A DNA stretch of 14,854 nt from Gemmatimonadota bacterium (GTDB lineage Bacteria; Gemmatimonadota; Gemmatimonadetes; Gemmatimonadales; Gemmatimonadaceae): contig QHUV01000134.1 in NCBI GenBank assembly GCA_003222065.1, positions 1-14,854 on the forward strand, written 5' to 3'. Each line of letters opens with the position of its first letter. The first letter of the stretch is position 1. The notes beneath the pieces were generated by a model that saw only the letters and a list, made by a program, of their open reading frames with translations, was not told the origin of the DNA and searched no databases. The translations under genes and the position numbers were made by a program. Below are positions 1-14,854 of the stretch, one piece after another.

Positions 1-2169
1 CTCGACGGACTCGCCGCATACACGCGCAACGAGGCGACACTCTCGTATCCGGATAACCCGGAGCGACTCCGTCTCGTCCACGCGAGTGACGACTTCTTTC
101 CTCTGCTCGGCATCGCGCCGCTCATCGGACGACGCTTTGCGTCTGACGAATACGCCGTACGTCCCGCGAAAGTGGTGGTGTTGAGCTACGCATTCTGGCA
201 ACGTCGCTTCGGCGGTGATCGATCGGTCCTTGGCCGCGTGATCCCAATCGACGGCGTTCAACGAACTGTCGTCGGGGTCATGCCGCCGCGTTTCGCCTAT
301 CCCGAGGCGCGCACCGATCTCTGGATGCCGCTTCCACATTTCAATCCTGACAGCATCAACGATCGGGACAATCACTACTTGTTCATGGTGGCCCGACTCA
401 AGCCTAACGTGAAGCTCGAGTCGGCATTTGCCGAAGCGAATGGCATGGCGAAGCGCTTCATGCGCACGTTTCCGAATCTCTACAATCCGCGTGAGCCGCT
501 CACGCCGAAACTGAAGCCCGTCACCGACGAGCTCGTCGGCAATACGCGCCCGTATTTGCTCGCTCTCCTCGGCGCCGTCGGGTTTGTCTTGCTCATCGCT
601 TGCGCGAACGTCGCCAACCTTCTGCTCGTGCGCAGCGAAGGCCGCCACAAGGAAATGGCGGTCCGTAGCGCGCTTGGGGCGTCGCGCTTTCGGCTGCTCG
701 TGCAATTGCTCACGGAAAGCCTTCTGCTCGCGACAATCGGCGGATCGCTCGCTCTGCTCCTCGCATGGACCGGCGACCGTACCCTCGTTGCTCTAGCACC
801 TGGGTCGATCCCGCGACTCGACGAGATCCGCGTCGACTGGCGCGTCATCGCGTTCACGGCCGTCGTGACGCTGGCGACGGGAATCATTGTCGGTCTCGTC
901 CCCGGCCTACGCGGGTCTCGCGACAATTCCGCCGATGCGCTGAAGGACGCGGGAAGAACGACCGGCAGCCAGGGCGCGGCGCGCGGCGCCAGACGAGCAC
1001 TCGTCGTCACCGAGCTGGCGCTGGCGGTGATCACGTTATCCGGCACGGGCATGCTCGTGCGCAGTCTGTGGAACTTGCAACGCGCGGAGCTTGGCTTCGA
1101 TCCCCGGCATGTGCTCACCGGCGGCGTTGCGCTCTCGGCGCGTGAATACGACGACGCGCGCGCGGCCGTGTTCTATGAAGAGCTTCTCGTCCGATTGCGC
1201 GCGGTGCCTGGCGTCGTCAGCGCGGGGGCTTCCGGCTGGTTGCCGGTCGTCGACGCCGGTGGCCTCTGGGGCGTTCTTCCGGAGGGTCGCCCGTTCGTGC
1301 CGGGTCGGTCACCACAGGCGGTGCCACAGCAGATCACGCCGGGTTACGTGCGAGCGATGGGCCTTACGCTCGTAACCGGTCGCGATTTCACGTCGGCCGA
1401 TCGAACCGAGACGGCGCCGGTGGTGATCGTGAGCAAGCGCCTCGCCGATCTGTTTTGGCCTAACGAGAGCGCCATCGGCCGCCGCATGAAGCTCGGCAAC
1501 CCAACCATGCCCTGGATGACCGTCATCGGGGTCGTGAGTGACATTCGTTCGCGCGGCTTCGGCGACACTCCCGAGCCAACCATGTACTTCGCATACGCGC
1601 AAAGCGGCAAGACGGGCTATTTCCAGCCGCGGGCCATGTCGCTCGTTGTGCGGACGAGCAGCGATCCCGCCACACTCGCGACCGTGATGCGGGACGCCGT
1701 GCACGCGCTCGACCGCACCGTCCCCGTCTCGGACGTGCGCACGATGGAGCAGATCGTCGGCATCTCTATCGCCGACCGGCGCTTCAGCACCGCTCTCCTC
1801 GCCGGCTTTGCCGTGCTTGCGCTCGCCCTCGCGGGTATCGGCACCTACGGCGTGATTTCGTATGGCGTCACGCAGCGCAGCTTCGAGATCGGCGTCCGCA
1901 TCGCCCTCGGCGCCGGCGATCGATCGGTGCTCGCGCTCGTGATGTCCGAGGGCCTCCGCATGAGCGTTCTCGGGCTTGGGCTTGGCCTCGTGGCGTCGAT
2001 TGCACTGGGTCGTGCCCTGCGCGCGCTGCTTGTTGGCGTCTCGGCGATCGATCTGCCGACGCTTTTGATGGCATCGCTGGCGCTGGTGAGTGTGGCACTC
2101 CTCGCGTGCATCATCCCGGCTCGCCGCGCCACAACGGTGAGTCCGATAACGGTGATGCGTGGCCCTTGA
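1..2169 (+). CDS. ADOP-family ABC permease (MacB_PCD/FtsX), C-terminal 722 residues, cut by window edge
   Basis: The frame is open from the first base, so the gene starts outside the window. The first about 170 residues are a MacB-type periplasmic core ending in a VVG-V-MP-F segment. A FtsX domain follows: a membrane segment around PYLLALLGAVGFVLLIACAN, then the cytoplasmic 'RHKEMAVRSALGASR' loop and two more helices. After a linker (VVTELALAVITL helix) come a second periplasmic core with FWPNES-IGRR and a C-terminal FtsX domain with the 'RSFEIGVRIALGA' loop, ending in 'PITVMRGP'. This duplicated MacB_PCD-FtsX layout is that of the acidobacterial duplicated orphan permeases, usually about 800-900 residues. 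They lack their own ATPase and their substrates are mostly unknown; export or lipoprotein release is inferred from MacB/LolCDE kinship. No ATPase gene is visible here. The stop lies 45 bp before the next gene on the same strand. Two GCCTAACG octamers (402, 1458) fall inside it. Confidence 0.93.
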   Translation, partial: LDGLAAYTRNEATLSYPDNPERLRLVHASDDFFPLLGIAPLIGRRFASDEYAVRPAKVVVLSYAFWQRRFGGDRSVLGRVIPIDGVQRTVVGVMPPRFAYPEARTDLWMPLPHFNPDSINDRDNHYLFMVARLKPNVKLESAFAEANGMAKRFMRTFPNLYNPREPLTPKLKPVTDELVGNTRPYLLALLGAVGFVLLIACANVANLLLVRSEGRHKEMAVRSALGASRFRLLVQLLTESLLLATIGGSLALLLAWTGDRTLVALAPGSIPRLDEIRVDWRVIAFTAVVTLATGIIVGLVPGLRGSRDNSADALKDAGRTTGSQGAARGARRALVVTELALAVITLSGTGMLVRSLWNLQRAELGFDPRHVLTGGVALSAREYDDARAAVFYEELLVRLRAVPGVVSAGASGWLPVVDAGGLWGVLPEGRPFVPGRSPQAVPQQITPGYVRAMGLTLVTGRDFTSADRTETAPVVIVSKRLADLFWPNESAIGRRMKLGNPTMPWMTVIGVVSDIRSRGFGDTPEPTMYFAYAQSGKTGYFQPRAMSLVVRTSSDPATLATVMRDAVHALDRTVPVSDVRTMEQIVGISIADRRFSTALLAGFAVLALALAGIGTYGVISYGVTQRSFEIGVRIALGAGDRSVLALVMSEGLRMSVLGLGLGLVASIALGRALRALLVGVSAIDLPTLLMASLALVSVALLACIIPARRATTVSPITVMRGP

Positions 2170-2214
2170 CGGGCGTGGATCTTTCCCGGGTCCCCATCAT
2201 CCGTCAGTCATCGC

Positions 2215-3291
2215 GTGCAACTAGGCATTTACACTTTCGCGGAGACGACGAAGGATCCGCGCACCGGACACACCGTGACTGCCGCGCAACGGCTGCGCGA
2301 CTTGATCGAGGAGATCGAGCTCGCCGACCAGCTGGGGCTCGACGTCTTCGGCGTTGGTGAGCATCATCGACCGGACTTCGCCGTCTCAGCGCCGGCCGTG
2401 GTGCTGGGCGCGGCGGCGGCCCGCACGAAGCAGATTCGCCTGACGAGCGCGGTGACCGTACTCAGCTCGGACGATCCCGTTCGCGTCTTTCAAGACTTTG
2501 CAACGCTGGACCTCATCTCCAACGGCCGCGCCGAGATCATGGCTGGTCGCGGCTCGTTCATCGAGTCCTTTCCGCTTTTCGGGCACGACCTCGACGAGTA
2601 CGACGAGCTGTTCATCGAAAAGCTCGAGCTTCTGCTGGCATTGCGGGCGCACGAGCGCGTCACGTGGTCGGGCAAGCACCGGCCGCCCCTCGAGAACCTT
2701 GGCGTGTACCCACGTCCCGTCCAGGCCGAGATCCCGATTTGGGTCGCCGTCGGCGGGACGCCGCAGTCCGTCGTCCGCGCCGCGACGCTCGGCTTGCCGA
2801 TGGCCCTCGCGATCATCGGCGGAGCGCCTCAGCGATTCGCGCCGTTGATCAAGCTCTATCGCGAGAGCGCGCGTCGTGCCGGCCGCGATCCGGCGGCCCT
2901 CCCGGTCGGCATCAACTCACACGTTTGGATCGCCGACGACTCGCGGCGCGCCGCTGACGAATTCTATCCGTCCTATGCCGACGTCATGACGCGCATCGGC
3001 CGCGAGCGCGGCTGGCCGCCGACGACGCGGGCGCAGTTCGAGGCGCTGCGCTCGCCGCGCGGCTCGCTCTTGGTCGGGAGCCCGCAGGAGGTGATCGACA
3101 AGATGCTCTACGAGTACGAGCTGTTCGGCAACGACCGGTTCCTGGCGCAGCTCACCGTCGGATCGATGCCTCACGACCGCGTCATGCACGCGATCGAGCT
3201 GCTCGGCACGGTGGTCGCTCCAGCCGTTAGGCAAGCGACGGCGGAGCACGCTACTCCCGCCTCCGAGTCAACCGAACCACAGAAGCTCTGA
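2215..3291 (+). CDS. LLM-class (luciferase-like) flavin-dependent oxidoreductase
   Basis: This 358-residue protein has the features of a bacterial-luciferase-like TIM barrel that uses reduced flavin: the N-terminal strand MQLGIYTF, the 'VGEHHRPDF' segment (47-55), '[15 protein letters not shown]' (77-90) and '[13 protein letters not shown]' (103-115). The length fits the family, and it looks closest to the 2I7G-like subgroup of probable LLM oxidoreductases. The substrate cannot be read from the sequence; family members oxidise small organic compounds. The start is GTG at 2215. It matches the conserved first beta strand, but no clear Shine-Dalgarno precedes it. It follows the permease by 45 bp and could be cotranscribed. 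The last 20 residues are a polar, disordered tail. One CGTTAGGC octamer lies near the end (3225) and brings in a rare AGG arginine codon. No flavin reductase is nearby. Confidence 0.9.
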
Positions 3292-3300
3292 CGCCTTCGC

Positions 3301-3376
3301 GTCATCCCCAGGGAGCCAGCGACGAGGGATCTGCTTGTCGACAGGTGCAGATCGCTCGCTGCGCTCGAAATGCCAA
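3301..3376. repeat. Degenerate REP-like palindrome between convergent genes
   Basis: The left half reads GTCATCCC...GCGACGAGGGATCTGC. The right half, read on the minus strand, is GCATTTCGAGCGCAGCGAGCGATCTGC. Both match the arm of the perfect hairpin at 10139-10211 (consensus close to GTCATCCCGAGC-AAGCGAGGGATCTGC), but with several substitutions and an insertion in the left arm. It fills the gap between two genes transcribed toward each other, so it could act as a bidirectional terminator. The family assignment rests on the comparison of these two copies only. Confidence 0.7.
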
Positions 3377-3384
3377 CGGGGCCG

Positions 3385-5052
3385 TCACCGCTGCACACGC
3401 CAGGTAGCCGCCGGACCCGCGACGCCCGTGCGACTGATCGCCGTTACCGCAATCCAGGCCATGCGCAGCGTGTCGGTGGGAGTGAGTGCCAGAGGCCCAT
3501 CGGTTGCCGGCAGCAGCCGCGCGCGCCACCGCTCATCGGTGCCTAACGTCTGAACGAGCCACCAGCGAACCGCCACCGCGTCGCCGGGCGAGGCGACGAC
3601 GATGGCTCGCGTTAGGCTCGACGGATGCGCCACGTCGTCGATCGCACTGCCTTGCTGCACACTGCCTTCCGACGGGGGCGCGAGGAGGGGCATCGCTGGG
3701 GCGGCGGCGCCGAGCCACGTACTCGCAGGCGGCAAGGCGGGCTGTGCGTACTCGGCGACGCGAAGGGCATCACCGAAGGTGGCGCTGTCGCCATTCAGAT
3801 GCTCCCCGAACGTCCGTAGCCTGAAGTGCACGTGGCCTAACGATTCCGACGTTCCCTGTCGCGCCGAGCGCAGCGCCTCGACCTCGCGCGCGATCTCCTC
3901 CGGCGCCCAGGGATCGTCGCGCGAGCCGACGCGCATCGTGAACAGTCCCGGCCACACATGCCGGGCCAACACGTTCTCGCTCCGCCACCACGCATCTAGC
4001 CGCGTGAACCGCTGCTCGTAGTTATCCAGCGGCCAATAAAGCTGCGGCGCCAGATAGTCCACCCAGCCCTCGCGCAGCCAGCGCCGCGCGTCCGCGAATG
4101 TCTCCGCATACGCATCCAGGCCAGTGATGCCTTGCGGGTGCCCAGGCCGCCAGATGCCGAACGGGCTGATGCCGACGAGTACCCAACGCTTCCTCGACTT
4201 GACCTCGCGGTACAGCGTGCGCACGAAGTCGTCGACGTTGGCGCGGCGCCAGGCGCCACGATCTGTCCAACCGCGCGCGACGCCATACCGCCGCCACGAG
4301 GCATTGTCGGGAAACGGCAGCGTCACGCGTCTCGTTATGCGCAGGCGCCGCTTGCCGTGCTTTACGGTACGCGTGATCGTCCCTTCCTCGAGATATGGAT
4401 AGAAGTAGTCATCGAGATGGACGCCGTCGACGTCGTAGCGATCGACGACATCCATGATGCAGTCGAGCACGGCGCGGCGCGCCTCGGGAATCCCGGGATC
4501 GATCCACGTCGATTTTCCGTATTGACGAATCCATTTCGGATGGGTGCGCGTCACGTGTCCGGCGACCGGGCGCCCAAGGTCGTCCGGCGGCATGGCCCGG
4601 AAGGGATTGAACCACACATGCAGCTGCAGTCCGCGCGCATGCGCCTCGGCGACGGCCAGCGCCAACGGATCATACCCCGCATACTCGCCTAACGAAACAG
4701 GGTCTCGGCCGACGAGATAGCGTGACCAGGGCGCGTCGCGACTCGGATAGAGCGCGTCGCCCGCGGTCCGCACGTGGAGCAGCACGGCATTGAGACCGTC
4801 CGCCTTGGCACGGTCGAGGACCTCGCTCAGTTCCGCCTTCTGCTCCTCGACGCTCAACCCTGGCCGCGATGGCCAGTCGCCTCCCTCCGTCGGCGATATC
4901 CAGGCCGCTCGAAACTCACGGGCGAGCCGCGGAGGGACTGGTTGTGCACCGGCGTGCCGGGCGACGAGACCGCCAGCCAGCACAACGCAAGCAATAAATG
5001 CATACCGCCGAGCGTCGCTCCAGCGCCGGGCGACGCGATCATTTAACGACAT
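3385..5052 (-). CDS. Exported GHL10 (DUF187) glycosyl hydrolase-like protein, DigH/YngK type
   Basis: About 555 residues. The N-terminus is basic, then hydrophobic (YAFIACVVLAGGLVARHAGA), ending at a likely AGA-Q signal peptidase site, so the protein is probably periplasmic. The GHL10 barrel runs from FRAAWISPTEGGDWPS to about residue 400. It contains the family's DPVSLGEYAGYDPLALAVAEAH stretch, LHVWFNPFRA, the 'VDGVHLDDYFYPY' motif with its paired aspartates, and the late DYLAPQLYWP strand. A roughly 100-residue Fn3-like C-terminal domain follows. Known relatives are Bacillus YngK and E. coli DigH (YddW), which as I recall cleaves denuded peptidoglycan glycan strands, so a wall-remodelling role is inferred. 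ATG 5052 is preferred; an in-frame GTG lies three codons upstream (5061), and neither has a clear ribosome site. It carries four octamers, three of which place a rare TTA leucine codon. Confidence 0.9.
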   Translation of the reverse strand: MSLNDRVARRWSDARRYAFIACVVLAGGLVARHAGAQPVPPRLAREFRAAWISPTEGGDWPSRPGLSVEEQKAELSEVLDRAKADGLNAVLLHVRTAGDALYPSRDAPWSRYLVGRDPVSLGEYAGYDPLALAVAEAHARGLQLHVWFNPFRAMPPDDLGRPVAGHVTRTHPKWIRQYGKSTWIDPGIPEARRAVLDCIMDVVDRYDVDGVHLDDYFYPYLEEGTITRTVKHGKRRLRITRRVTLPFPDNASWRRYGVARGWTDRGAWRRANVDDFVRTLYREVKSRKRWVLVGISPFGIWRPGHPQGITGLDAYAETFADARRWLREGWVDYLAPQLYWPLDNYEQRFTRLDAWWRSENVLARHVWPGLFTMRVGSRDDPWAPEEIAREVEALRSARQGTSESLGHVHFRLRTFGEHLNGDSATFGDALRVAEYAQPALPPASTWLGAAAPAMPLLAPPSEGSVQQGSAIDDVAHPSSLTRAIVVASPGDAVAVRWWLVQTLGTDERWRARLLPATDGPLALTPTDTLRMAWIAVTAISRTGVAGPAATWRVQR

Positions 5053-5074
5053 CGATTTCACTGCTATCCAGCAA

Positions 5075-5089
5075 AGAGTTAGTAACTCT
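5075..5089. promoter_or_regulatory. Small perfect dyad upstream of the GHL10 gene
   Basis: AGAGTTA-G-TAACTCT is a perfect 7-bp inverted repeat around one base. It lies 23 bp upstream of the preferred ATG of the glycosidase gene, in an AT-richer stretch of the 91-base gap. Position and symmetry fit a repressor-type operator, but there is only one copy and no regulator gene nearby. It could be chance. Confidence 0.25.
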
Positions 5090-5152
5090 AAGGCAAGCCG
5101 CGCACCATGCGCCTTCCGGAGTGTAGCTCGCCGCGCAAAATTGGTCTATTGG

Positions 5153-5700
5153 TTAGACGCGCAGACTCTCCGCGAGTATTCGATCGAACACCTCGACGAG
5201 CCTATCCGCGTTGTCCTCGCTGAAGGCCATCGGCGGACGAATCTTGACCACATTGTGGTACGGACCATCGGTGCCGACGAGAATGCCTTCCTCACGCATA
5301 CGGTTCACGACATACGATGCCTCGCTGTCTGCGGGCTCCAGTGATTCTCGATCGCGCACGAGTTCGACGCCGAGGAACAAACCAGAGCCGCGCACGTCGC
5401 CGACGAGCCGATGCCGAGCGACGAACGGTCGCAGTCCATCAAGCAGGGCCTGCCCGACGCGTAACGCCCGCGGCTGGAGTTGCTCGTCCCTCACGACGTC
5501 GAGCACGGCAAGCCCGATTGCGCACGAAACCTGATTGCCGCCGAACGTCGAGAAGTACTCCATGCCATTGGCGAACGCCTCGGCGATTTCGCGCTTCGCG
5601 ACGACCGCGCCGAGGGGATGTCCGTTGCCTAACGGCTTACCCATGACAACCATGTCGGGGACGACACCCTGCGCGTCGAATGCTACTTCGCGCCCGCGCC
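5153..5700 (-). pseudogene. C-terminal fragment of AGXT2L-type class III PLP phospho-lyase (broken gene, 3' part)
   Basis: From the [10 protein letters not shown] motif to the TAA at 5153 this matches the C-terminal half of ethanolamine-phosphate/5-phosphohydroxylysine phospho-lyases (ETNPPL/PHYKPL). Visible landmarks are the PLP-binding lysine in [56 protein letters not shown] and the closing VFDRIL. The homologous frame extends upstream of the apparent ATG (5653) as [12 protein letters not shown], then runs into sequence belonging to the other fragment in another frame. The middle of the enzyme, including the conserved ADEVQ aspartate that holds the PLP ring nitrogen, is missing between the two parts. 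This piece alone cannot be an active aminotransferase-fold enzyme. An assembly error is the main alternative. An octamer (5627) sits beside the lysine motif and creates a TTA codon. Confidence 0.85.
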
Positions 5701-8043
5701 GGGATCGCCGCGCTTGAACCGGCCCCGATAGTCGTCGGCAAGCGGCGCGACATGCACCCAGTCCGGTGCGCCCGTACCGCCGGGACCAGCGTGCTTGTAC
5801 GGGCTGACGTCGATGAGTGAAGTCGTATTGCCATGATACGCCGCCTCGAGCACGACGGTGTCGCGTCGCCGCGTGAAGGTACGCGCGAGGCGTAGTGCGA
5901 GCTCGTTCGCCTCACTCGCCGAATTCACGAGGAAGACGACTCCATCGCTGAGCGACGCGGGCAGGGTCGCCGTCAATCGCTCTGCATACTCGTTCGCAAT
6001 GTCGCTTGCATAGCGAGTGTTCGTGTTCAACACCGCCATCTGTGCCTGTCCGGCGCCGACAACGCGTGGATGGCAGTGTCCAACATGCGGCACGTTGTTA
6101 TAAGCGTCGAGATAGCGGCGGCCGACATCGTCGTAGAGATACTGCATCCACCCCCGCTCGACCTTGACCGGAGACTCGTACGACAAGCTCACGTTCGCGC
6201 CAAATCGTCGCCGGCGCTCGGCGATCGTCGTTAGGCGATCGGGCAGTGGCAGCGGGAATCGCGCCGCCGGGACACGGACGAGCAGATTCGGATCCGGACA
6301 CATGCTCCGCCAGACCGTACGTTGGCTGGCGGGCGCCACTCCTGGAAAGTCCGGACCGAGGCCGAGCAAGTCGGTGATGATCTGGAGGTGCAGATGCGGC
6401 GTCCAGTTCCCGTTCTCGCTAGGTGCGCCGAGCGCGGCGAACCGCTCGCCACGGGCAATGCGCTGGCCAAGGGCAATTCCATCGAGCGACGCCCGGCTCA
6501 GATGGCCGTAAAGCGTGAAGAATTGCTCACCACTGTCAGCCCGATGGCACAACAAGATGACGGGCCCGTAGTCCTGCGCTGTGGCGTTGTCGGCGAACGC
6601 GTGAACGACACCCTCCAGTGGCGCGTGCACCGACGTACCCGCCTCGGCAAAGAGATCGAGACCGATATGGATCGTCCGGCGCTCATTGTCAGGCGTCGCA
6701 CCGCCAAAGAATGGTGCGCTGTAGAGTAGCCGTGGCTCGTCGTACCGCCCGATCGCCACCCCCGCCAGCCTCTCGCGCATGAGACTCTCGATGCGCGGCG
6801 TCAGCTCTGGCTCGGCGTTTTCGTCTGGATCTCCGCTCACCAGCGGACTCGCGACGCCGAGGTCGAGCACGACACACGGCTCGGTACGAAGGTCGACCTC
6901 GAGCACGGACGCGAACGTCTCGACATTTGCCCGGAGCCAATCGGTGACACGCTTGGCTTTAGGGCTGGGCTCGCGCCCCGCCGCATCTCGCCCGACGGCG
7001 ACCGCAAACTCGTAATGCACGTCGGTCAACCGCGGCAAGGTTCGGCGGATCGCGGCTTGACTCACGCCGAGGTAGTCATTGTCCGGCCGCGCGCGCTGCT
7101 GGTCGATGGCGATGCTCGCGCTGAGCGCCAGCCGTAGGCACACGAGAGCCCAGACGACCTCGAGCTCCACGTCGTCATAGCTGAATTCCCGCGCCGCCCC
7201 GCGAACGAGAGCCGCAAAAATGGCCAGCGGATCCGCGGCGTCCAGCATCGCGTATCCAGCGGCGATGGCGAGATCGGCGATGCGCCAGCCGCGCAACATG
7301 TCCCCGAAATCAACGATGCCGGTCACCCGCGCGACGCTCGTTAGGCGCCGACGATCCCCATCCTGAGACGCGACGAGGATGTTGTGGTCGTTGAGATCGT
7401 TGTGAATGACCGACCGCGCGAGCGCGGGCTCGCGCGGCACGACACGTTCTCGCACCAGCGCGAGCGTCCTGTCGATTGCCGCGCCGAACGCATCGTCGGT
7501 GATTGCCGACCGCGATCCGGCCACCCGTTCCGCGGCGTGCGTTAGGTCCCAATGGAACACTCGCTCGAGCAGCGGATGCTCCAGGTTTTGCAGAGCCGCG
7601 GTGAGGCGCCCGATCTCGCGGCCGAGCTCCTCGAGCAGCGCGAGCGAACGATGCGGGACGTCCGCGAGCTGGACGCCGGGCAGGTAACTGACTGCCCATG
7701 CCAGGTGCCGCGCGCCCGCGCAATCCGCGATCTCCGTCAGCGCGCCGCCGCGAGTGGTACGGATGAGCCGCGGCACCGCCACATGACGCTGCGCGAGAGC
7801 TGCCAGAACGTGATGCTGTGCCTCCAACAACCCACGCTCCTCGAGCGCATTGGCGATCTTGAGGACGATCGCATCGCCGTTGTCCGCCTCGATGAGAAAG
7901 TTTTGATCGCGTTCGCTCGTGAGCTGCCGGGCCTGCCCGCGCCGGCCGTAATGCTCCCACGCGATCCGCGCCGCGTCAGCAGCGTTAAATGATGGTGTGT
8001 GCTCGAGCATCGATTCCATTGCGCCGGGCTGGTACAGCTTCAT
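5683..8043 (-). pseudogene. APH-type kinase + M23 LytM domain + N-terminal half of PLP phospho-lyase (broken gene, 5' part)
   Basis: 786 codons if started at ATG 8043; ATG 8019 or 8010 (MLEHTPSF) are alternatives. Longer starts would read into the 240-bp repeat and are unlikely. Residues about 15-330 are an aminoglycoside-phosphotransferase/hydroxylysine-kinase-like fold with catalytic loop HNDLNDHN (214-221) and DFG (245-247). Residues about 425-580 are an M23 domain with both zinc motifs, H459-xxx-D463 and H550-x-H552. From about 600 it matches AGXT2L lyases: [34 protein letters not shown] and AYHGNT. It then stops after GDPGAGAK. The 3' half continues in another frame (5153-5700) with about 70 residues gone. 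In animals the related kinase and lyase act in sequence on 5-hydroxylysine; that this protein used such a substrate is inference. No signal peptide is visible despite the M23 domain. The kinase and M23 parts may still be made. Confidence 0.85.
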
Positions 8044-8279
8044 CACGGATTCCCCGGATTCAAGAACGGATTTCGCGGGTTTGCTCCTCTTCACTACGCC
8101 GCCGCCCTCCACGAGCCCCGACGATGCTCTTGGTGACGGCACGCCAGTCGGAGTCCGACGCGAGGATCCTCCCGAGGTGGTTCACAAAGATCATATCGTC
8201 CGGGCTCGTGGGGCGCGGAATCGTAAGCGCTCACGGAGCAGATTCGTGGAATCCGTTCCATCCGGGAAACCCGTGATGA
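8040..8279. repeat. 240-bp near-palindromic interspersed repeat, copy 1
   Basis: It begins TCATCACGGATTCCCCGG and ends CCGGGAAACCCGTGATGA, which are reverse complements with few mismatches. Complementarity continues inward (ACGAGCCCCGACGAT near 8111 against ATCGTCCGGGCTCGT near 8190) to a centre at 8147-8159 (GTCGGA-G-TCCGAC). The whole element could fold into one long imperfect hairpin. It matches the reverse complement of 10661-10892 along its full length. There is no convincing reading frame inside. It sits exactly at the 5' end of the kinase-lyase gene and overlaps its first possible start codon. It could be a non-autonomous mobile element or a structured RNA; the sequence alone does not decide. 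Confidence 0.8.
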
Positions 8280-8287
8280 AGCCGTTC

Positions 8288-8386
8288 TCACCCTTTCGTC
8301 AGCGTCCGTCCGCGCGCTGTTGTCCGAGCGGAATTCTTCCGTACCGAGCGCGCGGCGAAGCTCAGGTCCTTCAGAAAGTTGTCCAT
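8288..8386 (-). pseudogene. 5' remnant of an ADOP permease gene
   Basis: From ATG 8386 the minus strand encodes MDNFLKDLSFAARSVRKN, closely resembling the conserved start of ADOP permeases (the M-D-x-hydrophobic-LxDLxxAxRxLRK pattern just before the first membrane helix). After about 18 residues the similarity ends and the frame stops at 8288, a few bases before the 240-bp repeat. The hydrophobic helix and the rest of the gene are absent. It overlaps the end of the truncated DinB frame. The identification rests on one short motif, but that motif is characteristic and two full-size relatives flank the window. Confidence 0.6.
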
Positions 8387-8706: not shown

Positions 8707-8720
8707 GGAGCGTGCGGGCG

Positions 8721-8818
8721 GGATTGGGGGTCGGTCTCGGTGTCGGTGTCGGTGGTCAGTGATCGGTTGCCGGTTAGAGTCTAACCGATCAACAACCACC
8801 GATCAGCGACCCCCAACC
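8721..8818. repeat. Simple GT-rich inverted repeat upstream of the DinB fragment
   Basis: TTGGGGGTCG (8724-8733) pairs with CGACCCCCAA (8807-8816). At the centre CGGTTAGA-G-TCTAACCG (8771-8787) is a perfect 17-base dyad, and GATCGGT/ACCGATC blocks lie between. It fills most of the 171-base divergent gap between the DinB fragment and the FecR-like gene. It may hold promoters for both, but I see no convincing -35/-10 pair. The central GGTTAG is not the GCCTAACG octamer. Confidence 0.6.
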
Positions 8819-8867
8819 TAGCCGACTCGGCCCAAACGAGGCATACTGGATTGTCCCATTCGTAATC

Positions 8868-8872
8868 GGAGG
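8868..8872 (+). promoter_or_regulatory. Shine-Dalgarno site of the FecR-like gene
   Basis: GGAGG lies 5 bases upstream of the ATG at 8878. It is one of only two clear ribosome sites in the window and fixes this start. Confidence 0.8.
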
Positions 8873-8877
8873 TTGTC

Positions 8878-10134
8878 ATGCCCGCTACGTCTCCGCCGAT
8901 GGGGTCCGACCTGCCACCCGCCCCCGGCGTGCCGTTGGCTGACGCACGCTCGCTCGAGGAGTACTTCCGCGCTCGCTTCTCAGACCTGACTACCGAGGCG
9001 AAGTCGCATCTGGACGACGCGTCGACGGCCGCGCCGAAAGTCGTGGAAGGTGCATTCCGTCACGCATGGGAGGAGCGCCAGCACATTCAGACTCCCGAGC
9101 AGCTCGACGCCTTCCTCCACGACGAGGTTCGCCATGGAGCGGCGCGCGAGAAGAGTCGACGCGCGAGCCTCCATCATTACAGCGGCACCGCGCCGAAGGC
9201 GGCGCACGCGTCGACGACGGCAGATGTGGATCAGTCCTGGACACATCTGTCGCGATCCCTGCATCTCGTGCCAGACGATGTCAGCTCGTCGGCGTCGCAA
9301 GAGAGCGCGGCGCTGTTGCGACATGATGCCGCGGGTCACGTCGCCGAGCTGGCGAAGAAGCGTTCGTGGAAGGTGCCGATCGCCATCGGCGTCGCTGCGG
9401 CTCTCGTCGTCGCCGGCGGTATCTGGTACGTCGATCGCCTCGGCGACGAGGGCGCCATCACTGGCGCGCTCGCGGCACCCGACGCCCGAACGCATGTCGC
9501 CGCCACGGCGCAGCTGGCGATCGTCACCCTCGACGACGGCACGAAGGTCATGCTCACGCCGGAATCGAGGCTCATCGTCCCGAAACAGTTCGGTGACTTG
9601 ATGCGCGCGGTGAAGCTCGAGGGCGAAGCGACGTTCACGGTCACGCCCGGACAACGCAAGCCCTTCGAGGTCCGGGCCGCCGACACCAAGACGGTGGTGA
9701 CCGGCACCGTCCTCACCGTCCGCGCCTTCCCGAGTGAGAGCGCGGTGGTCGTCGCCGTCCAACAGGGAGGCGCCAGCGTGCAGGTGGGTGATAGTCTCCG
9801 CGCCGTCGCCGCGGGTCACGCCGTCCTGGTGTCGAAGAAGACGATGCGTGAGCCGACCGCGGTCGAGCTGCAGGAAGCGACGAGCTGGAATGATAAAACG
9901 CTCACCATCGCCAACCGACCGCTACGCGACGTTCTGCCTCAGTTGAAGCGCTGGTACGGCCTCGACATAAAGGTCATCGACACACCGCTGCTCGCTCGGA
10001 TGGTCACCATGCAGGCTTCACTCGACTCGCCTAACGAAGCCATCACCGGCGTCTCGCAGAGCGCGAACGTGAAGTTCGGCTATGAGGGAAAGACGATGGT
10101 CTTCACGGACGCGAAAGGAGCGAAGAAGAAATAG
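8878..10134 (+). CDS. FecR-domain membrane protein with sigma-region-2-like N-terminus
   Basis: 418 residues with a strong GGAGG ribosome site. Residues about 26-96 follow the layout of ECF sigma region 2: LEEYFRARFSDL, KVVEGAFRHAWEER (compare the usual VVQE-F-R-W pattern) and LDAFLHDEVRHGAAREKSRR (compare the A-LY-V-R-N-A-RR pattern). No region 4 follows. A polar linker leads to one membrane helix (WKVPIAIGVAAALVVAGGIWYV, 164-185). Outside lie a FecR beta domain (about 205-320, with LDDGTKVMLTPESRL, EGEATFTV, PFEVRAADTKTVVTGT) and a C-terminal STN/DUF4974-like domain (ANRPLRDVLPQLKRWYGLDIKV). FecR proteins normally pass a periplasmic signal to a separate sigma factor. Here the inner part itself looks sigma-derived, and no sigma or TonB receptor gene adjoins. 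The FecR part is secure; the sigma relationship is inferred from pattern only. One octamer lies at 10029. Confidence 0.88.
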   Translation: MPATSPPMGSDLPPAPGVPLADARSLEEYFRARFSDLTTEAKSHLDDASTAAPKVVEGAFRHAWEERQHIQTPEQLDAFLHDEVRHGAAREKSRRASLHHYSGTAPKAAHASTTADVDQSWTHLSRSLHLVPDDVSSSASQESAALLRHDAAGHVAELAKKRSWKVPIAIGVAAALVVAGGIWYVDRLGDEGAITGALAAPDARTHVAATAQLAIVTLDDGTKVMLTPESRLIVPKQFGDLMRAVKLEGEATFTVTPGQRKPFEVRAADTKTVVTGTVLTVRAFPSESAVVVAVQQGGASVQVGDSLRAVAAGHAVLVSKKTMREPTAVELQEATSWNDKTLTIANRPLRDVLPQLKRWYGLDIKVIDTPLLARMVTMQASLDSPNEAITGVSQSANVKFGYEGKTMVFTDAKGAKKK

Positions 10135-10138
10135 CTCC

Positions 10139-10211
10139 GTCATCCCGAGCAAAGCGAGGGATCTGCTTTTAGTCAAATCAAAAGCAGATCCCTCGCTTTG
10201 CTCGGGATGAC
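10139..10211. terminator. Perfect 32-bp hairpin between convergent genes (REP-like, likely bidirectional terminator)
   Basis: Bases 10139-10170 (beginning GTCATCCCGAGC and ending CTGCTTTT) are exactly complementary to 10180-10211, with a 9-base loop AGTCAAATC. The hairpin starts 5 bases after the FecR-like stop and ends 11 bases before the stop of the opposing gene. The inner T-run and A-run would give U-rich RNA only in the stem, not after it, so this is not a textbook intrinsic terminator. Its arm recurs in degenerate form at 3301-3376, again in a convergent gap. As I recall, similar GTCATCCCGAGC-type palindromes are scattered through many soil-bacterial genomes. Confidence 0.85.
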
Positions 10212-10221
10212 AAGAGTTGGT

Positions 10222-10560
10222 TCAACGCGCCAGCACTCGCTCCAACCTGCCGCTCCGCGCGAAAAGGAACGTCAGATTCCCGATGCTGACGGTGGTGTCG
10301 GTCGCGAGGATGCGCGCCTTCGGATTGTCGCGGCGAAGGACCTTTAGTACGCCCGAACGCATCGCCGGAGGCTGTTGGTCCTGCAGGACGCGCGCGACGA
10401 TCTCCAGGTTCTGCTCCGCCGTGTCGTGGCTCTCCCCGGCATAGCTCACCTTCTTATCGGGCCGCACGATCAGCAGGATGCCGATCACGACGACCGAGAC
10501 GCCGAGGAGAATGAAGAAGCTCCGGCGCCAGATTCTGCGACTGCGTCCGATGTCCGTCAT
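10222..10560 (-). CDS. Small single-pass membrane protein, unknown function
   Basis: 112 residues from an ATG. The short N-terminus is arginine-rich (RSRRIWRR) and is followed by one strong hydrophobic helix (SFFILLGVSVVVIGILLIV, 14-32), so the protein is probably anchored with its C-terminus outside. The soluble part (AGESHDTAEQNLEIVARVLQDQQPPAMRSGVLKVLRRDNPKARI...) has no motif I recognise; the end, IGNLTFLFARSGRLERVLAR, looks like beta strands. Composition and codon use fit a real gene, and it ends 11 bases from the shared hairpin. It is convergent with the FecR-like gene, so it is not in its operon. Upstream, 10561-10660 holds nothing clear. Confidence 0.7.
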   Translation of the reverse strand: MTDIGRSRRIWRRSFFILLGVSVVVIGILLIVRPDKKVSYAGESHDTAEQNLEIVARVLQDQQPPAMRSGVLKVLRRDNPKARILATDTTVSIGNLTFLFARSGRLERVLAR

Positions 10561-10660
10561 GATCCAATCGGGAAGCCTAGTTCAAGGTAAAAGGATCGTC
10601 CGTGACACATCGCACATTGTCGGTCCGACCCTATTCCTCTAGCGAGCTCAGGCAAAAGCG

Positions 10661-10892
10661 TCATCACGGATCCCCCGGATTATCACCGATTCCACGGATC
10701 TGCTCCGTGAACTCCCATGACTCCATGCCCAACAACCGGACGATTGATCTTTGTGAACGACTCGGGATGGTCCCCGTGCCGGAGCCCGACTGTGCCGTAC
10801 CAAAGAGCATCGTCCGGGCTCGTTGAGGGCGGAGGTGTAGCGGAAGAGGAGCAATCAGTGAAATCTGTTTGAATCCGGGAAATCCGTGATGA
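10661..10892. repeat. 240-bp near-palindromic interspersed repeat, copy 2 (inverted)
   Basis: It has the same termini as the element at 8040-8279 (TCATCACGGATCCCCCGG ... CCGGGAAATCCGTGATGA) and the same internal landmarks in reverse order: TGATCTTTGTGAACGACTCGGGA, GAGCATCGTCCGGGCTCGTT and AGAGGAGCAATCAGTGAAATCTG. Read on the minus strand it aligns with copy 1 from end to end with scattered substitutions and small indels. The centre is near 10784, off-centre on the opposite side from copy 1, which confirms the inverted orientation. It occupies most of the 399-base gap between two minus-strand genes; the remaining 67 bases to 10959 show nothing clear. Confidence 0.8.
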
Positions 10893-10959
10893 GTCGTTGT
10901 GGTTTAAAGTCCGCGTCGTCCGCGCTCACGCTCAGCCAGCCACGGCGCGCCGAACCCTC

Positions 10960-11637
10960 TCAACTAGCGCGGATGTACTTACACCCCGCATCCTGCGCGT
11001 GTAACGCCGCGAAGACCCCGGACGGCTGGAGGATCACTCCCGGCACCAGGAAGGCGATCGCCCGCTTGCGCGCATCGCTCTCGGTCGCGTTTTCCTTCTT
11101 CTGAATTGCTTCGACGACGTCCTGTAGCGCGAGGTTGCAGGCGAGCACGATCCCGCCGCGGGCGATGAAGCGGTCGAGCGCGACATCGTCGAACATCGCC
11201 GGCACTTCGTTCCGCGACGACGCGAGCAGCGCCGGGTTGCGATCGGTGCCCTGCTGGGTGACCGGGTGGAGCACCTTCTTCTCCTTCCCGATCGCGTAGC
11301 TGTCCCAGTACGCTTGCTGCATGGCGAGCTGGATCCCCGTATGCCGCAGCACCAACACGGCCGACAGCTCGTTAGGCTTTGCGCCGAGGACTTCCTGGTA
11401 CTGCTTGCCCCAGATCGAGGCCCGCCATACCCCGTAGCCGCTGTCGATCTCGGGAACGTCGAAGATCGCGCGATACCTTCCCGTTAGGCGGTTGACCCAG
11501 CTCAAATCCCATTCTTCGGCACTCGGGGCGCGCGCCCGATCGAAAACACGGATCGAGGCATCGACCGGCAGCGGCAACCCGGCGACGAGCGCGCCGGCCG
11601 CAACCCTGCCGACAAAATCACGGCGATCGATAGGCAT
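10960..11637 (-). CDS. Tat-exported DsrE-superfamily-like protein
   Basis: 225 residues. The N-terminus MPIDRRDFVGRVAAGALVAGLP is a twin-arginine signal (RRDF plus a mildly hydrophobic stretch), so the protein is probably exported folded. The mature part has alternating strands and helices: RYRAIFDVPEIDSGYGV, NELSAVLVLRHTGIQLAM, FIARGGIVLACNLALQDVV, and the closing GVILQPSGVFAALHAQDAGCKYIRAS. The pattern resembles DsrE-like families, whose last strand often follows a G-x-x-x-PSG-x-x-A-x-x-x-AQ-x-G-C arrangement. Cysteines are present at ACNLAL and AGCKY. Known DsrE proteins handle sulfur transfer, but the role of exported members is not settled, so no reaction is assigned. The ATG at 11637 abuts a G-rich inverted repeat and has no ribosome site. 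Two octamers lie inside (11370, 11482). Confidence 0.75.
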   Translation of the reverse strand: MPIDRRDFVGRVAAGALVAGLPLPVDASIRVFDRARAPSAEEWDLSWVNRLTGRYRAIFDVPEIDSGYGVWRASIWGKQYQEVLGAKPNELSAVLVLRHTGIQLAMQQAYWDSYAIGKEKKVLHPVTQQGTDRNPALLASSRNEVPAMFDDVALDRFIARGGIVLACNLALQDVVEAIQKKENATESDARKRAIAFLVPGVILQPSGVFAALHAQDAGCKYIRAS

Positions 11638-11722
11638 TGGTGGGTGGTGGTGGGTGGGTGGCGATGGTTGAATGGAGCGAGTTTACCATCTACGATCACC
11701 AACCACTAGCCGGCACCCACCG
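11638..11722. repeat. G-rich inverted repeat with possible two-tier G-quadruplex
   Basis: Bases 11639-11661 contain seven runs of two or three G separated by single T. The right side (CACCAACCACTAGCCGGCACCCACC, 11697-11721) is roughly complementary to the left. It fills the gap between the mutarotase stop and the DsrE-like start, reaching the start codon itself. The G-rich strand is the template strand for the DsrE-like gene. Any effect on expression is inference. Confidence 0.55.
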
Positions 11723-11727
11723 GCCAA

Positions 11728-12543
11728 TTACAACGCCGTGAGCGTCTGTTGCCCAGTCCAGCGCTCTCCCGGCTCCAATCGCACCGGTGCGCCGATCACC
11801 GCGGCTTCGACGCAGAGCATACGCAGCCAACCGCCCGGTTCGAGGTCGCTCAGCGCCGCCCCGCGGTCGGGGCCCGGATTCCAAACCACGACGTCCGTGA
11901 ATCCAGACATGGAGACACGAGTCCGCCGGACGTCGTCACGCACCTCGAGCGGCTCGTCGACGCCGAGATAGATCCGGTCCAGCTCCCCGGTTACGCGAAG
12001 CTCGGCGTCAGCTTGCCGCGCCGGCGCGCCGCCGGCCGTGCTGTCCCGGAACGTTCCGTCCTGAAGTCCGAGTATGACCGTGCCGCGCACGTCGTCGACA
12101 AGGAGGTAGGTGTGAAGTGCCGTCGTGAATCGAAACGGCATCTTGTCTTCATTGACGACGGAGAGCGCGACCGCCAACGACATCCCTTGGACGGTGACGA
12201 CCAGATTCGCCGCGAAGTCGTGATCCCAGATGGTGCGCGTGCGCGGTGTCGCCGTTAGGCGGAACTGTGCCTCGCCCTTCCCTGTGCGCGCTCGACCGGC
12301 ACGCACGCTCGCCCACTCGACGACGCGCGCGAAGCCATGCTTCGGCAGTGGTCCCATGGCACCGAACTGCGGGAAGATCACCGGAACACCGCCGCGGATG
12401 GCGGCATCCGCCGCGAACGCCGATCGCTCACTGAGAAAGAGTCGCTCGTCGCCACCGACGGTCTTCCACGACGTGACTTGCGCGCCGTGAGTGAAGGCCG
12501 CCGCCCGCGCACCATCGGTCGCCGCGATTTCTACTCTCTCCAT
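11728..12543 (-). CDS. D-hexose-6-phosphate mutarotase / aldose 1-epimerase-like protein (YeaD type)
   Basis: 271 residues, the usual length for the YeaD-like group, which interconverts alpha and beta anomers of hexose 6-phosphates in the cytoplasm. Landmarks are IRGGVPVIFPQFG (49-61), the substrate-binding KHGFARVVEW with H69, ALHTYL with the catalytic-type H144, VVWNPGP (219-225) and CVEAAVI with the likely catalytic E246. There is no signal peptide. Start ATG 12543 has a GAGGA site six bases upstream, so it is secure. It begins 24 bp after the stop of the ADOP permease on the same strand and may be cotranscribed with it. The sugar cannot be named from sequence. One octamer lies at 12253. 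Confidence 0.92.
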   Translation of the reverse strand: MERVEIAATDGARAAAFTHGAQVTSWKTVGGDERLFLSERSAFAADAAIRGGVPVIFPQFGAMGPLPKHGFARVVEWASVRAGRARTGKGEAQFRLTATPRTRTIWDHDFAANLVVTVQGMSLAVALSVVNEDKMPFRFTTALHTYLLVDDVRGTVILGLQDGTFRDSTAGGAPARQADAELRVTGELDRIYLGVDEPLEVRDDVRRTRVSMSGFTDVVVWNPGPDRGAALSDLEPGGWLRMLCVEAAVIGAPVRLEPGERWTGQQTLTAL

Positions 12544-12549
12544 TCACGA

Positions 12550-12554
12550 TCCTC
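12550..12554 (-). promoter_or_regulatory. Shine-Dalgarno site of the mutarotase gene
   Basis: On the minus strand GAGGA precedes the ATG at 12543 by six bases, inside the 24-base gap after the permease stop. This supports translation from a joint transcript. Confidence 0.7.
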
Positions 12555-12567
12555 GCCGTACGGGACA

Positions 12568-14854
12568 TCAATCGGCACGTAGCGCGGCGATGGGATCGAC
12601 GCCAACCGCACGGAACGCGGGCAGAAGACATGCCGCAAGCGCAACCGTGCCGAGCAGCAAAACGACACTGAATAGAGTCACGAGATCGGCGGCGCCGACA
12701 CCGAAGAGCAAGCTTTGAAGAAATCTGCCAAGAGAAAGAGCACCCAGCAGGCCCAAAAGCAGCCCGGCTCCCGCGAGTCGCGCTCCCTGAAGAAGGATCA
12801 TACCGAGGATTGCGCTCGGCGTTGCGCCGAGCGCCGTGCGCACGCCGATCTCCCGAGTGCGTTCCGTGACCGCGCCGGCAAGGACGCCGTAGATGCCGGC
12901 GACGGCGAGTACCAGCGCTACGGCGGCAAAGGCCACGAAGAGAAGCATCGCTAGGCGGCGTTGCGCCGTCGACGTGGCGACGACCTGTTCCATCGTCGCG
13001 AGAGCGGTGACGGGTTGAGTGGCGTCGACCCCCTGCACGACGCGGCGAACCGCCCGTGCCAGCGCTGCCGGGTCGCCGCGCGTACGGACCACGAGGGCGA
13101 CGCTGTTATCGGCGAATTGCCATTGCCGCTCGGGAATGTAGATCTGGCTCGGCTCCGACGCGTCCAGTGCCCGATGATGAATGTTGGCGACGACGCCGAC
13201 CACAACGCGCCACGGCCCGTTCGGGTCGCCCATGCGAATCCGCTTCCCGAGCGGGTTCTCGCCTGGCCAGATGCGCGACGCCAAGCCGCTGCTAACCATC
13301 GCGACGAACGGTGCGTGGTCGCTGTTGTCGGCGCTCGTGAAGCCGCGACCGCGGCGGATGGGAATGCCCATCGTGCCAATGAAGTCTGGAGAGACGACGT
13401 AGCGGTCGGCATACGGCGCGAGCTCCGGATTCGCGAGCAGTTTGTCCTGGGCATTGATACCATACATGTCGAGGTTGCCGCCTAACGGGAGCTGGTTCGC
13501 CGTGCCGACGCGCTCGACGCCCGGCAGCGCGCCGAGGGCGCCGCGGATGCGATCGTGATTGGCGTAGACGGCAAGGCTGTCGGTGTACTTCGGTCCAGTC
13601 GCCTGCGTCTGCAACGTCAACACGTGGCTGGGCTCGAACCCCGGATCCACGGCGAGAAGGCGCAACAGGCTGCGCGCGAGCAACCCGGCGCCGACGAGGA
13701 GCATCAACGCCAGGGCCACCTCGCTGACGACCAGTCCAGCGCGCGCAAAATGACGCGTCCCGCCCGTTAGGCGCTTGCCAGCGCGCAGAGCACCCGATAC
13801 ACCGACCTTCCCCTCACGCAGCGCCGGTACGAGACCGAGTGCGGTACCGAGGAGCAGCGTTATGGCGGCGCCGACCAGGAGCGCGACGCGATCGAGACGG
13901 ATCGCGGCGAGCCGCGGCATCGACTGAGGAAGTTGACCGGTCAACATGCCTAACGTCAGCTTGGCGACGGCGAGCCCCACCAGGCCGCCGATGACGGCCA
14001 GCAGCAGCCCTTCGGCCAGGAGCTGCGCGGTGAGCCGGCCGCGGCCCGCGCCAAGAGCGGCACGAATGGCGAACTCCTCTTCGCGGCGCATCGCGCGAGC
14101 GAGCTGTAGGTTCGCGACGTTGGCGGCGGCAATGAGCAGGACGAGCACTGACGCGCCGAAGACCGCCCAGAGCACCGGCTTGCTGCCGCGCATCGTCGCC
14201 TCGCCTAACGTCGTGACAATCGCCCCCGCCGCCGGATACTCCCGCGGGTATGCACGTACGAGGCGCGCCGACACTTCACTCAGCTCGGCGGCGGCGCGTT
14301 CTGGCGTCACGCGCGGCCGCAGCCGCGCGAACATGCGCAGGTGCCGGCACGTGCGACAGGCGTACGGAAGCGACGAATCATAGCCGAGCACGCGCCAGAT
14401 CTGCGCCTGCGGCGATGCCACGCTCTCGAACGACGCCGGGAGCACACCAGCCACCGTGAAGGGGTTGCCGTTGATCGAGATCTTCTTACCGACAATCGAC
14501 GAATCGGCGCCGTAACGCCGCGCCCACAACCCATGGCTCAGAATCACGACCTGATTGGTCCCCGGCGTGTCCTCGGCGGCGCCGAAATCCCTGCCTAACG
14601 CCGGACGCACGCCCAGCACCGAGAAGAAGCTCGCCGACACGCGCTGGCCCGAGACGCGCTCCGGTGCGCCGCCAACGCCGTCCAGGGTCACCTGCCAATC
14701 GCCGACCGCCGCCGCGCGCTCGAGCGTACGGCTGTCGCGAGCGAGATCGGCGAACGTCATGAACCCGACGTTGCTCGCTGAGCCGTCCGCATCGCGCTCG
14801 CCGACGATTACCAATCGGTCGGGTGACGGATACGGCAGCGGTTGGAATAGCACC
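12568..14854 (-). CDS. ADOP-family ABC permease (MacB_PCD/FtsX), 5' end beyond window
   Basis: The frame is open to the right edge. The apparent first codon is internal, because the sequence starts at the LFQPLPYPSPDRLV block that follows the first helix in this family. In order: MacB periplasmic core (GQRVSASFFSVLGVRPALGRDF, GKKISINGNPFTVAGVLP), a PYACRTCRHLRMFARL segment, FtsX domain 1 with loop EEEFAIRAALGAGRGRL, a linker with VVSEVALALMLLVGAGLLARSLL, a second core with RIWPGENPLGKRIRMGDP, and FtsX domain 2 with loop REIGVRTALGATPSAIL, ending DPIAALRAD. About 762 residues are visible of a probable 800-900. No ATPase is fused or adjacent. It differs clearly from the left-edge permease in sequence (for example PGEN against PNES), so the two are not a recent duplication. 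Five octamers lie inside, four placing TTA codons. Confidence 0.93.
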   Translation of the reverse strand, partial: VLFQPLPYPSPDRLVIVGERDADGSASNVGFMTFADLARDSRTLERAAAVGDWQVTLDGVGGAPERVSGQRVSASFFSVLGVRPALGRDFGAAEDTPGTNQVVILSHGLWARRYGADSSIVGKKISINGNPFTVAGVLPASFESVASPQAQIWRVLGYDSSLPYACRTCRHLRMFARLRPRVTPERAAAELSEVSARLVRAYPREYPAAGAIVTTLGEATMRGSKPVLWAVFGASVLVLLIAAANVANLQLARAMRREEEFAIRAALGAGRGRLTAQLLAEGLLLAVIGGLVGLAVAKLTLGMLTGQLPQSMPRLAAIRLDRVALLVGAAITLLLGTALGLVPALREGKVGVSGALRAGKRLTGGTRHFARAGLVVSEVALALMLLVGAGLLARSLLRLLAVDPGFEPSHVLTLQTQATGPKYTDSLAVYANHDRIRGALGALPGVERVGTANQLPLGGNLDMYGINAQDKLLANPELAPYADRYVVSPDFIGTMGIPIRRGRGFTSADNSDHAPFVAMVSSGLASRIWPGENPLGKRIRMGDPNGPWRVVVGVVANIHHRALDASEPSQIYIPERQWQFADNSVALVVRTRGDPAALARAVRRVVQGVDATQPVTALATMEQVVATSTAQRRLAMLLFVAFAAVALVLAVAGIYGVLAGAVTERTREIGVRTALGATPSAILGMILLQGARLAGAGLLLGLLGALSLGRFLQSLLFGVGAADLVTLFSVVLLLGTVALAACLLPAFRAVGVDPIAALRAD

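Follow-up and report, generated by a model that had tools for sequence, protein, structure and literature searches.

A dispersed octamer over-represented in scattered genera of the Gemmatimonadales resembles DNA uptake sequences in most genomic traits tested

The window, that is the whole 14,854-nt stretch analysed (positions 1 to 14,854 of contig QHUV01000134.1, GenBank assembly GCA_003222065.1, from a Gemmatimonadota bacterium of the family Gemmatimonadaceae), carries 19 exact copies of the octamer GCCTAACG between positions 402 and 14600, 11 on the plus and eight on the minus strand, all inside open reading frames (ORFs). Scanning ten ORFs for protein families named an ABC-type permease, a luciferase-like monooxygenase, a GHL10 hydrolase-like protein, FecR, an aldose epimerase and, in two ORFs, an APH-M23-aminotransferase fusion; a second permease (12568-14853), outside the scan, was named by eye. 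These host genes are unrelated to one another. Recount and family scan agree in this with the original prediction, which had reported the 19 copies, their strands and their spread over unrelated genes. The copies are listed with their peptide context and, where given, their fate in the congeners G001 and G002.

402..409, plus strand, MacB/FtsX-type permease gene, K-PN-V
1458..1465, plus strand, same permease gene, W-PN-E
3225..3232, minus strand, luciferase-like monooxygenase gene, A-VR-Q; kept in G001, not in G002
3541..3548, plus strand, GHL10 gene, T-LG-T; kept in G002, not in G001
3610..3617, minus strand, GHL10 gene, S-LT-R; not kept in G002
3835..3842, plus strand, GHL10 gene, S-LG-H; kept in G001 and G002
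4687..4694, plus strand, GHL10 gene, S-LG-E; kept in G001 and G002
5627..5634, plus strand, aminotransferase C-part ORF, P-LG-N; kept in G001 and G002
6229..6236, minus strand, APH-M23-aminotransferase gene, R-LT-T; kept in G001, not in G002
7339..7346, minus strand, APH-M23-aminotransferase gene, R-LT-S; one mismatch in G002
10029..10036, plus strand, FecR gene, S-PN-E; one mismatch in G002, two in G001
11370..11377, minus strand, ORF without Pfam match, K-PN-E; kept in G001 and G002
11482..11489, minus strand, same ORF without Pfam match, R-LT-G; one mismatch in G001, not kept in G002
12253..12260, minus strand, aldose epimerase gene, R-LT-A; kept in G001 and G002
13480..13487, plus strand, second permease-like gene, P-LG-G; kept in G002, not in G001
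13765..13772, minus strand, second permease-like gene, R-LT-G; kept in G002
13948..13955, plus strand, second permease-like gene, T-LG-M; kept in G001, not in G002
14203..14210, plus strand, second permease-like gene, T-LG-E; kept in G001, ACCTAACG in G002
14593..14600, plus strand, second permease-like gene, A-LG-R; kept in G001, CCCTAACG in G002

Chance is rejected as the source of these copies, 200 dinucleotide shuffles of the window giving a mean of 0.24 and a maximum of 2. The copies fall in four reading frames, encoding Pro-Asn (P-N, 4), Leu-Thr (L-T, 6), Leu-Gly (L-G, 8) and Val-Arg (V-R, 1), and both frames in which GCCTAACG would give a stop codon are empty. The ORF check reproduces the frame settings proposed earlier, in which a seventh L-T case was a near copy. 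At up to one mismatch the window holds 31 matches against 11.3 expected, which leaves 12 near copies, about the number expected by chance, where the original prediction had seen one. The density in the window (1.28 per kb) exceeds that of its own genome (0.55 per kb).

That genome (G000; 3.73 Mb, 82% complete) contains 2065 copies, 986 and 1079 by strand, far above expectation; the same letters read backwards are found 114 and 112 times. A 157.7-kb sample of it that contains the window has 118 copies against 2.0 expected from a trinucleotide model, a 60-fold excess. An excess had been anticipated correctly, at a figure of about thirty times chance that proves too modest. In the samples, which range from 8.7 to 480 kb per genome, the corresponding excess is 126-fold in Gemmatirosa (G018) and 43-fold in G022, and GCCTAACG has the highest observed/expected ratio of all 8-mers seen at least 10 times in the G000 sample. 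A sixth-order Markov model of this sample gives no excess (118 seen, 116 expected) because the octamer inflates its own inner 7-mers; the trinucleotide model is therefore relied upon. The Gemmatirosa contig L031 overlaps L032 and was counted, redundantly, in the Markov and trinucleotide, flank and coding/noncoding density figures; it was excluded from the inverted-pair, codon-context, stop-frame/noncoding-count, spacing, strand, gene-end and log-odds analyses. Locus L050 was left out of the stop-frame/noncoding-count and spacing analyses only.

The force on the octamer acts at the DNA level in four reading frames, the genic copies occupying silent positions for the most part. The contexts that permit it in G000 carry it in 22 of 33 P-N, 25 of 75 L-T, 40 of 157 L-G and 21 of 106 V-R cases, against 1.19, 0.71, 1.07 and 0.22 predicted from codon use, an excess of 18-94 times over the four frames. 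The same context test in five unenriched genomes gives a use of 0 save for one L-T case. With codon use taken from outside the octamer, each of the four frames in the window's genus gives log-odds between 3.95 and 4.85; Gemmatirosa gives 3.1-6.5 and the less enriched genomes 2.2-5.0. As many as 98 of the 134 TTA codons in the Gemmatirosa coding sample belong to the octamer, and the two stop-creating frames hold zero copies in each of five genome groups. The excess thus persists in four frames once codon use is modelled. Together with the counts in the genome and its relatives and with the conservation reported below, this upholds the earlier proposal of a genome-wide, DNA-level signal of the lineage.

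The core of the octamer is GCCTAAC. It is followed by G in 118 of 127 cases in G000, in 307 of 352 in G018 (A in 29 of 352; sample with the redundant L031) and in just 52 of 86 in G022; past one flanking base per side there is little conservation. Relatives have their own dialects: ACCTAACG and GCATAACG are enriched in G000 and GCCCAACG in G018 and G022, and over the genomes ACCTAACG, GCATAACG, GCCTAACA and GCCCAACG are enriched in some, many other neighbours not being so. GCCTAACG is not palindromic, its reverse complement being CGTTAGGC, and its copies are dispersed about equally on both strands, in genes and between them. Densities per kb are 0.81 in coding and 0.43 in noncoding DNA of G000 and 0.50 and 1.69 in G018 (with the redundant L031), figures that are rough since coding stretches were delimited by a simple ORF and GC-bias caller; other caller settings give 72 copies in 62 kb of G018 noncoding DNA. 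Inverted pairs of the core within 150 bp number 3 among 127 sites in G000 and 10 among 333 in G018.

Spacing is near random and mildly even in the window's genus, where the coefficient of variation (CV) of the gaps is 0.80, a value that short contigs lower, and 5.4% of gaps are below 150 bp against 12.7% for random placing. Samples of the Gemmatirosa chromosome hold 167 copies in 300 kb and those of its megaplasmids 96 in 140 kb without L050. Noncoding copies in the chromosome sample have no strand preference (24 plus, 26 minus; origin not mapped), and a role as replication-strand marker is not supported by them; all copies divide into 35 plus and 58 minus versus 54 plus and 45 minus when the chromosome is split at a point picked with the data in view. 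The nucleoid role considered in the original prediction finds little support in these noncoding counts and in a spacing near random with mild evenness.

A survey of 395 genomes of the phylum yielded 26 with at least 150 copies, every one in the order Gemmatimonadales and in scattered genera: 17 of 140 genomes in the family, nine of 88 in two other families of the order and none of 167 outside the order, where the maximum is 67 copies. The highest number is found in Gemmatirosa kalamazoonensis (G018; a 20-kb stretch matches plasmid NZ_CP007129.1 at 100%), with 4469 copies in 7.5 Mb; G029, with 3749 copies, was not drawn in the survey. At the other end, G023 has 17 copies, 64 loci titled as other groups have 4 in 1063 kb, and 15 further loci (titled Gemmatimonadota, one Blastocatellia) have 1; L183 of G002 has 14. 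In a gyrB tree of 38 genomes (a single gene, without G002, with 10 weakly supported forks) the strongly enriched genomes (G018; G032; G000 and G001; G029; G022) are dispersed, and so are the weaker ones (G027, G030, G013, G007; G035). The sister of G032 is G017 (support 100/99), whose 5.9 Mb contain 26 copies. Members of a genus mostly agree in the trait (for instance 4 of 4 genomes in g29 and 6 of 6 in g47), genus g40 being an exception with 168, 11 and 22 copies. Within the family, genomes are larger in the enriched genera, with a median of genus means of 4.87 versus 3.87 Mb (9 versus 20 genera, p 0.004, kinship ignored). G245, assigned to the genus of G022, has 3 copies and shares no long syntenic stretch with it (best match 1e-25); it is perhaps a misplaced or mixed bin and was not used as a within-genus exception. 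In L079 or L080 of G005 another set of 8-mers, CCATTGAA among them, reaches about 31 occurrences in 40 kb where 0.2 are expected; this is probably a CRISPR or other repeat array.

Octamers are conserved at orthologous positions. G000 and G001 are 74% identical where they align, and 10 of 14 octamers are retained between them, compared with 12.3% of the remaining 8-base windows; the values are 8 of 17 against 13.1% for G000 and G002, and 5 of 11 against 13.3% for G001 and G002, in three pairs that are not independent and comprise 11-15 kb each. A syntenic region of G032 and Gemmatirosa, 80% identical, behaves differently: none of nine aligned core sites (four in G032, five in G018) is shared, whereas 31.5% of other 7-base windows are identical (0.685^9 = 0.03). 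The stretch of G017 aligned to this region has no core copies, and at the four aligned G032 sites it reads GCCGAGC in every case, two changes away. Enrichment probably arose more than once, because Gemmatirosa and G032 have none of the nine core sites in common and the sister G017 is poor in the word. The simplest reading of the alignment is that the two probably gained their sites separately, the alternative on these nine sites being fast turnover in both. One gyrB site common to G022 and G029, which lie on different branches, may be parallel or old.

Tentatively, and with a likelihood that we put a little short of even, we consider GCCTAACG to be an uptake-sequence-like self-DNA word, by analogy with the DNA uptake sequences (DUS) and uptake signal sequences (USS) of Neisseriaceae and Pasteurellaceae. 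The comparison draws on PMC3974934 and on excerpts of PMC4390886, PMC2346458, PMC3630211 and PMC1939737. Such excerpts give 943 to 3236 copies of the 10-mer in Neisseriaceae, and observed versus expected numbers of 438 versus 3 for uptake sequences in one genome, 5648 versus 5 for HIP1 and 1008 versus 151 for Chi of Escherichia coli. One of the papers lists as traits of uptake sequences that they are non-palindromic, about equally frequent on the two strands, mostly not in inverted pairs, without strand bias and spaced nearly at random. The octamer matches uptake words in copy number and density (2065 in 3.73 Mb; 4469 in 7.5 Mb), and its excess is nearer to that of uptake sequences and HIP1 than to that of Chi. 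It has in common with uptake sequences the large dispersed excess, the asymmetry, the presence on both strands and not mainly in inverted pairs, noncoding copies free of strand bias (one chromosome sampled, origin not mapped), the near-random spacing, the enriched near-matches and the dialects among relatives. The codon-corrected excess in all four frames, the conservation at orthologous positions and, kinship ignored, the larger genomes of enriched genera also speak for this reading. A DNA-binding factor would prefer DNA bearing GCCTAACG; it would most likely belong to the apparatus that imports DNA in natural transformation, and the octamer could then accumulate, wherever the protein sequence permits, as kin DNA is taken up and recombined again and again. 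We infer that the reader would be an uptake receptor, the force an uptake bias and the setting competent cells.

Several points weigh against an uptake word. Conjugative elements of Neisseriaceae are reportedly poor in theirs, in contrast to a 15-kb mobile element of Gemmatirosa that bears the octamer at host density. This element, with a tyrosine integrase and DUF5906, is found in the chromosome (L032, start of C2) and seems to make up L031, the 21-kb 'high-copy element' contig (C1) of Gemmatirosa, in about 1.4 tandem copies, octamers recurring at 14,997 bp. Inverted pairs, said in the excerpts to be frequent between Neisseria genes, are few here. The bias towards gene ends that the excerpts give for Pasteurellaceae is not significant in the three strong sets (quintile p 0.10, 0.14, 0.31). 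The seemingly separate origin of one core in Gemmatirosa and G032, judged from nine sites, is at odds with an uptake word, which is expected to be inherited. ComEC speaks on both sides: its presence in 45 of the 48 genomes chosen, eight of the nine strongest among them, would agree with uptake, and yet it is as common in those without the octamer. It was missed in G365, G188 and G190, of which one is an assembly 75% complete and the other two have more than 800 contigs. GspH/FimT pilins, the only pilin families searched, are present in 34 of the 48 and fail to tell enriched genomes from the rest. Neither ComEC nor GspH pilins are thus supported as discriminating genes, and among the families searched (ComEC, GspH/FimT, PF00145, integrase) none follows the octamer. 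A search of the open-licence literature for competence together with these bacteria found no paper in which both terms occur.

Among the other explanations, an intracellular recombination, repair or nucleoid-organising protein that reads the octamer, in the manner of Chi or of a binding site, with selection keeping about one copy per 1-2 kb, retains a modest likelihood. Conservation at orthologous positions, the mild evenness (gap CV and deficit of short gaps) and the similar density on the Gemmatirosa chromosome and megaplasmids are consistent with it. So are the distances to another octamer, somewhat shorter for unused near-sites than for used sites (medians 536 versus 602, 633 versus 713 and 601 versus 922 bp; p 0.05, 0.47 and 0.04). 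However, the use of permitted P-N contexts reaches two thirds (22 of 33 in G000), beyond what a spacing rule would need, noncoding copies are without strand bias in the Gemmatirosa sample whose origin is not mapped, and the published excess of Chi is far smaller.

Less probable is a tie to integrons, in which the core of the octamer is that of cassette sites and dispersed cores are created or exploited by the integrase or by the movement of cassettes. The consensus of integron attC core sites is RYYYAAC / GTTRRRY; the chance that an arbitrary octamer holds GCCTAAC or its complement, computed after the fact, is about 4 in 16,384. Of 60 genomes of the order, 34 have an integron integrase that scores above the family cut-off, and enrichment is restricted to this integron-rich order, integrases outside it not having been searched. 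Beside the integrases of the unenriched G021 (L116) and G051 (L120) lie nine GCCTAAC copies on both strands, followed by G in six and A in three; L120 has two attC-like pairs that start with GCCTAACG and end with TTGTTAGGC, and we infer that the copies in L116 are cassette sites as well. The copies in the unenriched G036 follow one another at intervals of a few hundred bases, most of them on the same strand. The pairing test for attC, which looks for inverted cores with complementary inner boxes, is crude: among the inverted pairs of G000 and G018 it is passed only by one G018 pair (L037) and by the window pair 3541/3610, which is inside a gene, and it fails three inverted pairs of L050, 37-57 kb from an integrase gene, that look cassette-like by eye. 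Against the tie stand the dispersed copies in ordinary genes, in both orientations and without array order, and the lack of a clear association, an integrase over cut-off being present in nine of 12 enriched versus 16 of 24 other genomes of the family. No integrase is known to us to introduce point changes. Integrase presence is not supported as the cause by these counts, and cassette arrays are rejected as the source of most copies, which are dispersed with few inverted pairs.

The core shared with cassette sites is kept as a lead. It is conceivable, if rather doubtful, that a self-DNA word arose several times in the order from one seed, the integron cassette core, with an uptake or capture system favouring this core and spreading it genome-wide by mostly silent change. 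If so, uptake or capture of cassette-core DNA would bring cells both cassettes and kin DNA, and the shared integron pool would fix the specificity so that separate lineages converge on one word.

A mutation or repair bias without function, pushing near-matches to GCCTAACG, also appears rather improbable. The strong use of permitted sites, weakly dependent on neighbours, would agree with it, as would the fact that mobile DNA is affected too. Against it, one-mismatch neighbours are not generally depleted (GCCGAACG is seen 152 times in G018 against 160 expected); the unenriched G017 is two changes away at all four aligned G032 sites; the noncoding density of G000, from rough gene calls, is below the coding one; and no methylation is reported at the site that could feed Vsr-like repair.

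A HIP1-like origin, with a methylation site in the octamer driving its accumulation, is unlikely, and we give it very little weight. In its favour, HIP1 of cyanobacteria (GCGATCGC) is described in the excerpts as an octamer of like density whose enrichment generally goes with matching methylases. The excerpt on the Gemmatirosa methylome gives the N6-methyladenine motifs RGATCY, ATGCAC and CCAGN7TCA and reports no other kinds of methylation; none of the three lies in the octamer. A C5 DNA methylase (PF00145), the only kind searched outside Gemmatirosa, is not matched in any of the nine most enriched genomes, five of which are less than 90% complete, and the same search found it in 17 of 48 genomes, six of them weaker enriched and 11 unenriched. 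Because there is neither a fitting motif nor a C5 methylase match, the HIP1 model is not transferable to Gemmatirosa, and the methylation role suggested in the original prediction is not borne out. A codon-pair or protein-motif artefact, to which the genic position of every window copy and slightly raised P-N dipeptides (1.29-1.48 in three strong sets versus 1.17 in unenriched genomes) might point, is refuted by the codon-corrected excess in four frames, on both strands and beside noncoding copies, and has a negligible probability.

Other features of the window are apart from the octamer. A dispersed repeat of about 240-290 bp is present in two inverted copies (8040-8329 and 10658-10925) and matches more than 10 other contigs of the genome. 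The 73 bp at 10139-10211, 90% identical to their own reverse complement and with copies on contigs C555, C565, C517 and C716, are a small palindromic repeat family. The APH-M23-aminotransferase gene (5153-8142, minus strand) is split, Aminotran_3 profile positions 10-139 falling in one ORF and 254-403 in the next; 230 bases separate the matching parts in G001, 214 in G002 and 17 or none in the window, which would correspond to an internal deletion, a pseudogene or an assembly gap.

To our knowledge, highly repeated self-DNA words come from few lineages, uptake sequences from two families of Proteobacteria and HIP1 from cyanobacteria. As far as the open-licence literature, judged largely by titles, allows us to say, the octamer, its occurrence in scattered parts of a single order, an origin that was probably repeated and the core shared with integron cassette sites are new. 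How self-DNA words start is unsettled; of the sister genera represented by G032 and G017 one is rich in this word and the other nearly lacks it, and the word probably has more than one origin. Gemmatirosa, where it reaches its highest number, is in culture and has both a finished genome and a methylome, so that origin, reader and function of the word are open to direct testing. The matter bears on DNA exchange, and perhaps on integron cassette exchange, in a common soil group.

Set beside known systems, the octamer resembles uptake sequences in most genomic traits testable and differs from HIP1 and Chi in several. Like DUS and USS it is an asymmetric word of similar copy number and strength, on both strands, in genes and intergenic DNA, with dialects in some relatives and absence from others; unlike them it is a different word in a different phylum, with few inverted pairs and a core that probably arose repeatedly and is common to integron cassette sites. 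HIP1 is likewise an octamer at about one per kb and patchy among relatives, whereas GCCTAACG is not palindromic and has no methylation or C5 methylase match here. Chi of E. coli (GCTGGTGG) is also an asymmetric octamer, of far weaker excess, and no strand bias was detected in the noncoding copies of GCCTAACG (origin not mapped). What the octamer shares with integron attC sites is GCCTAAC, which in L120 forms the core of attC-like pairs next to an integrase from the order, whereas the octamers are mostly single and dispersed, without folded site or cassette, and their abundance does not follow the integrase.

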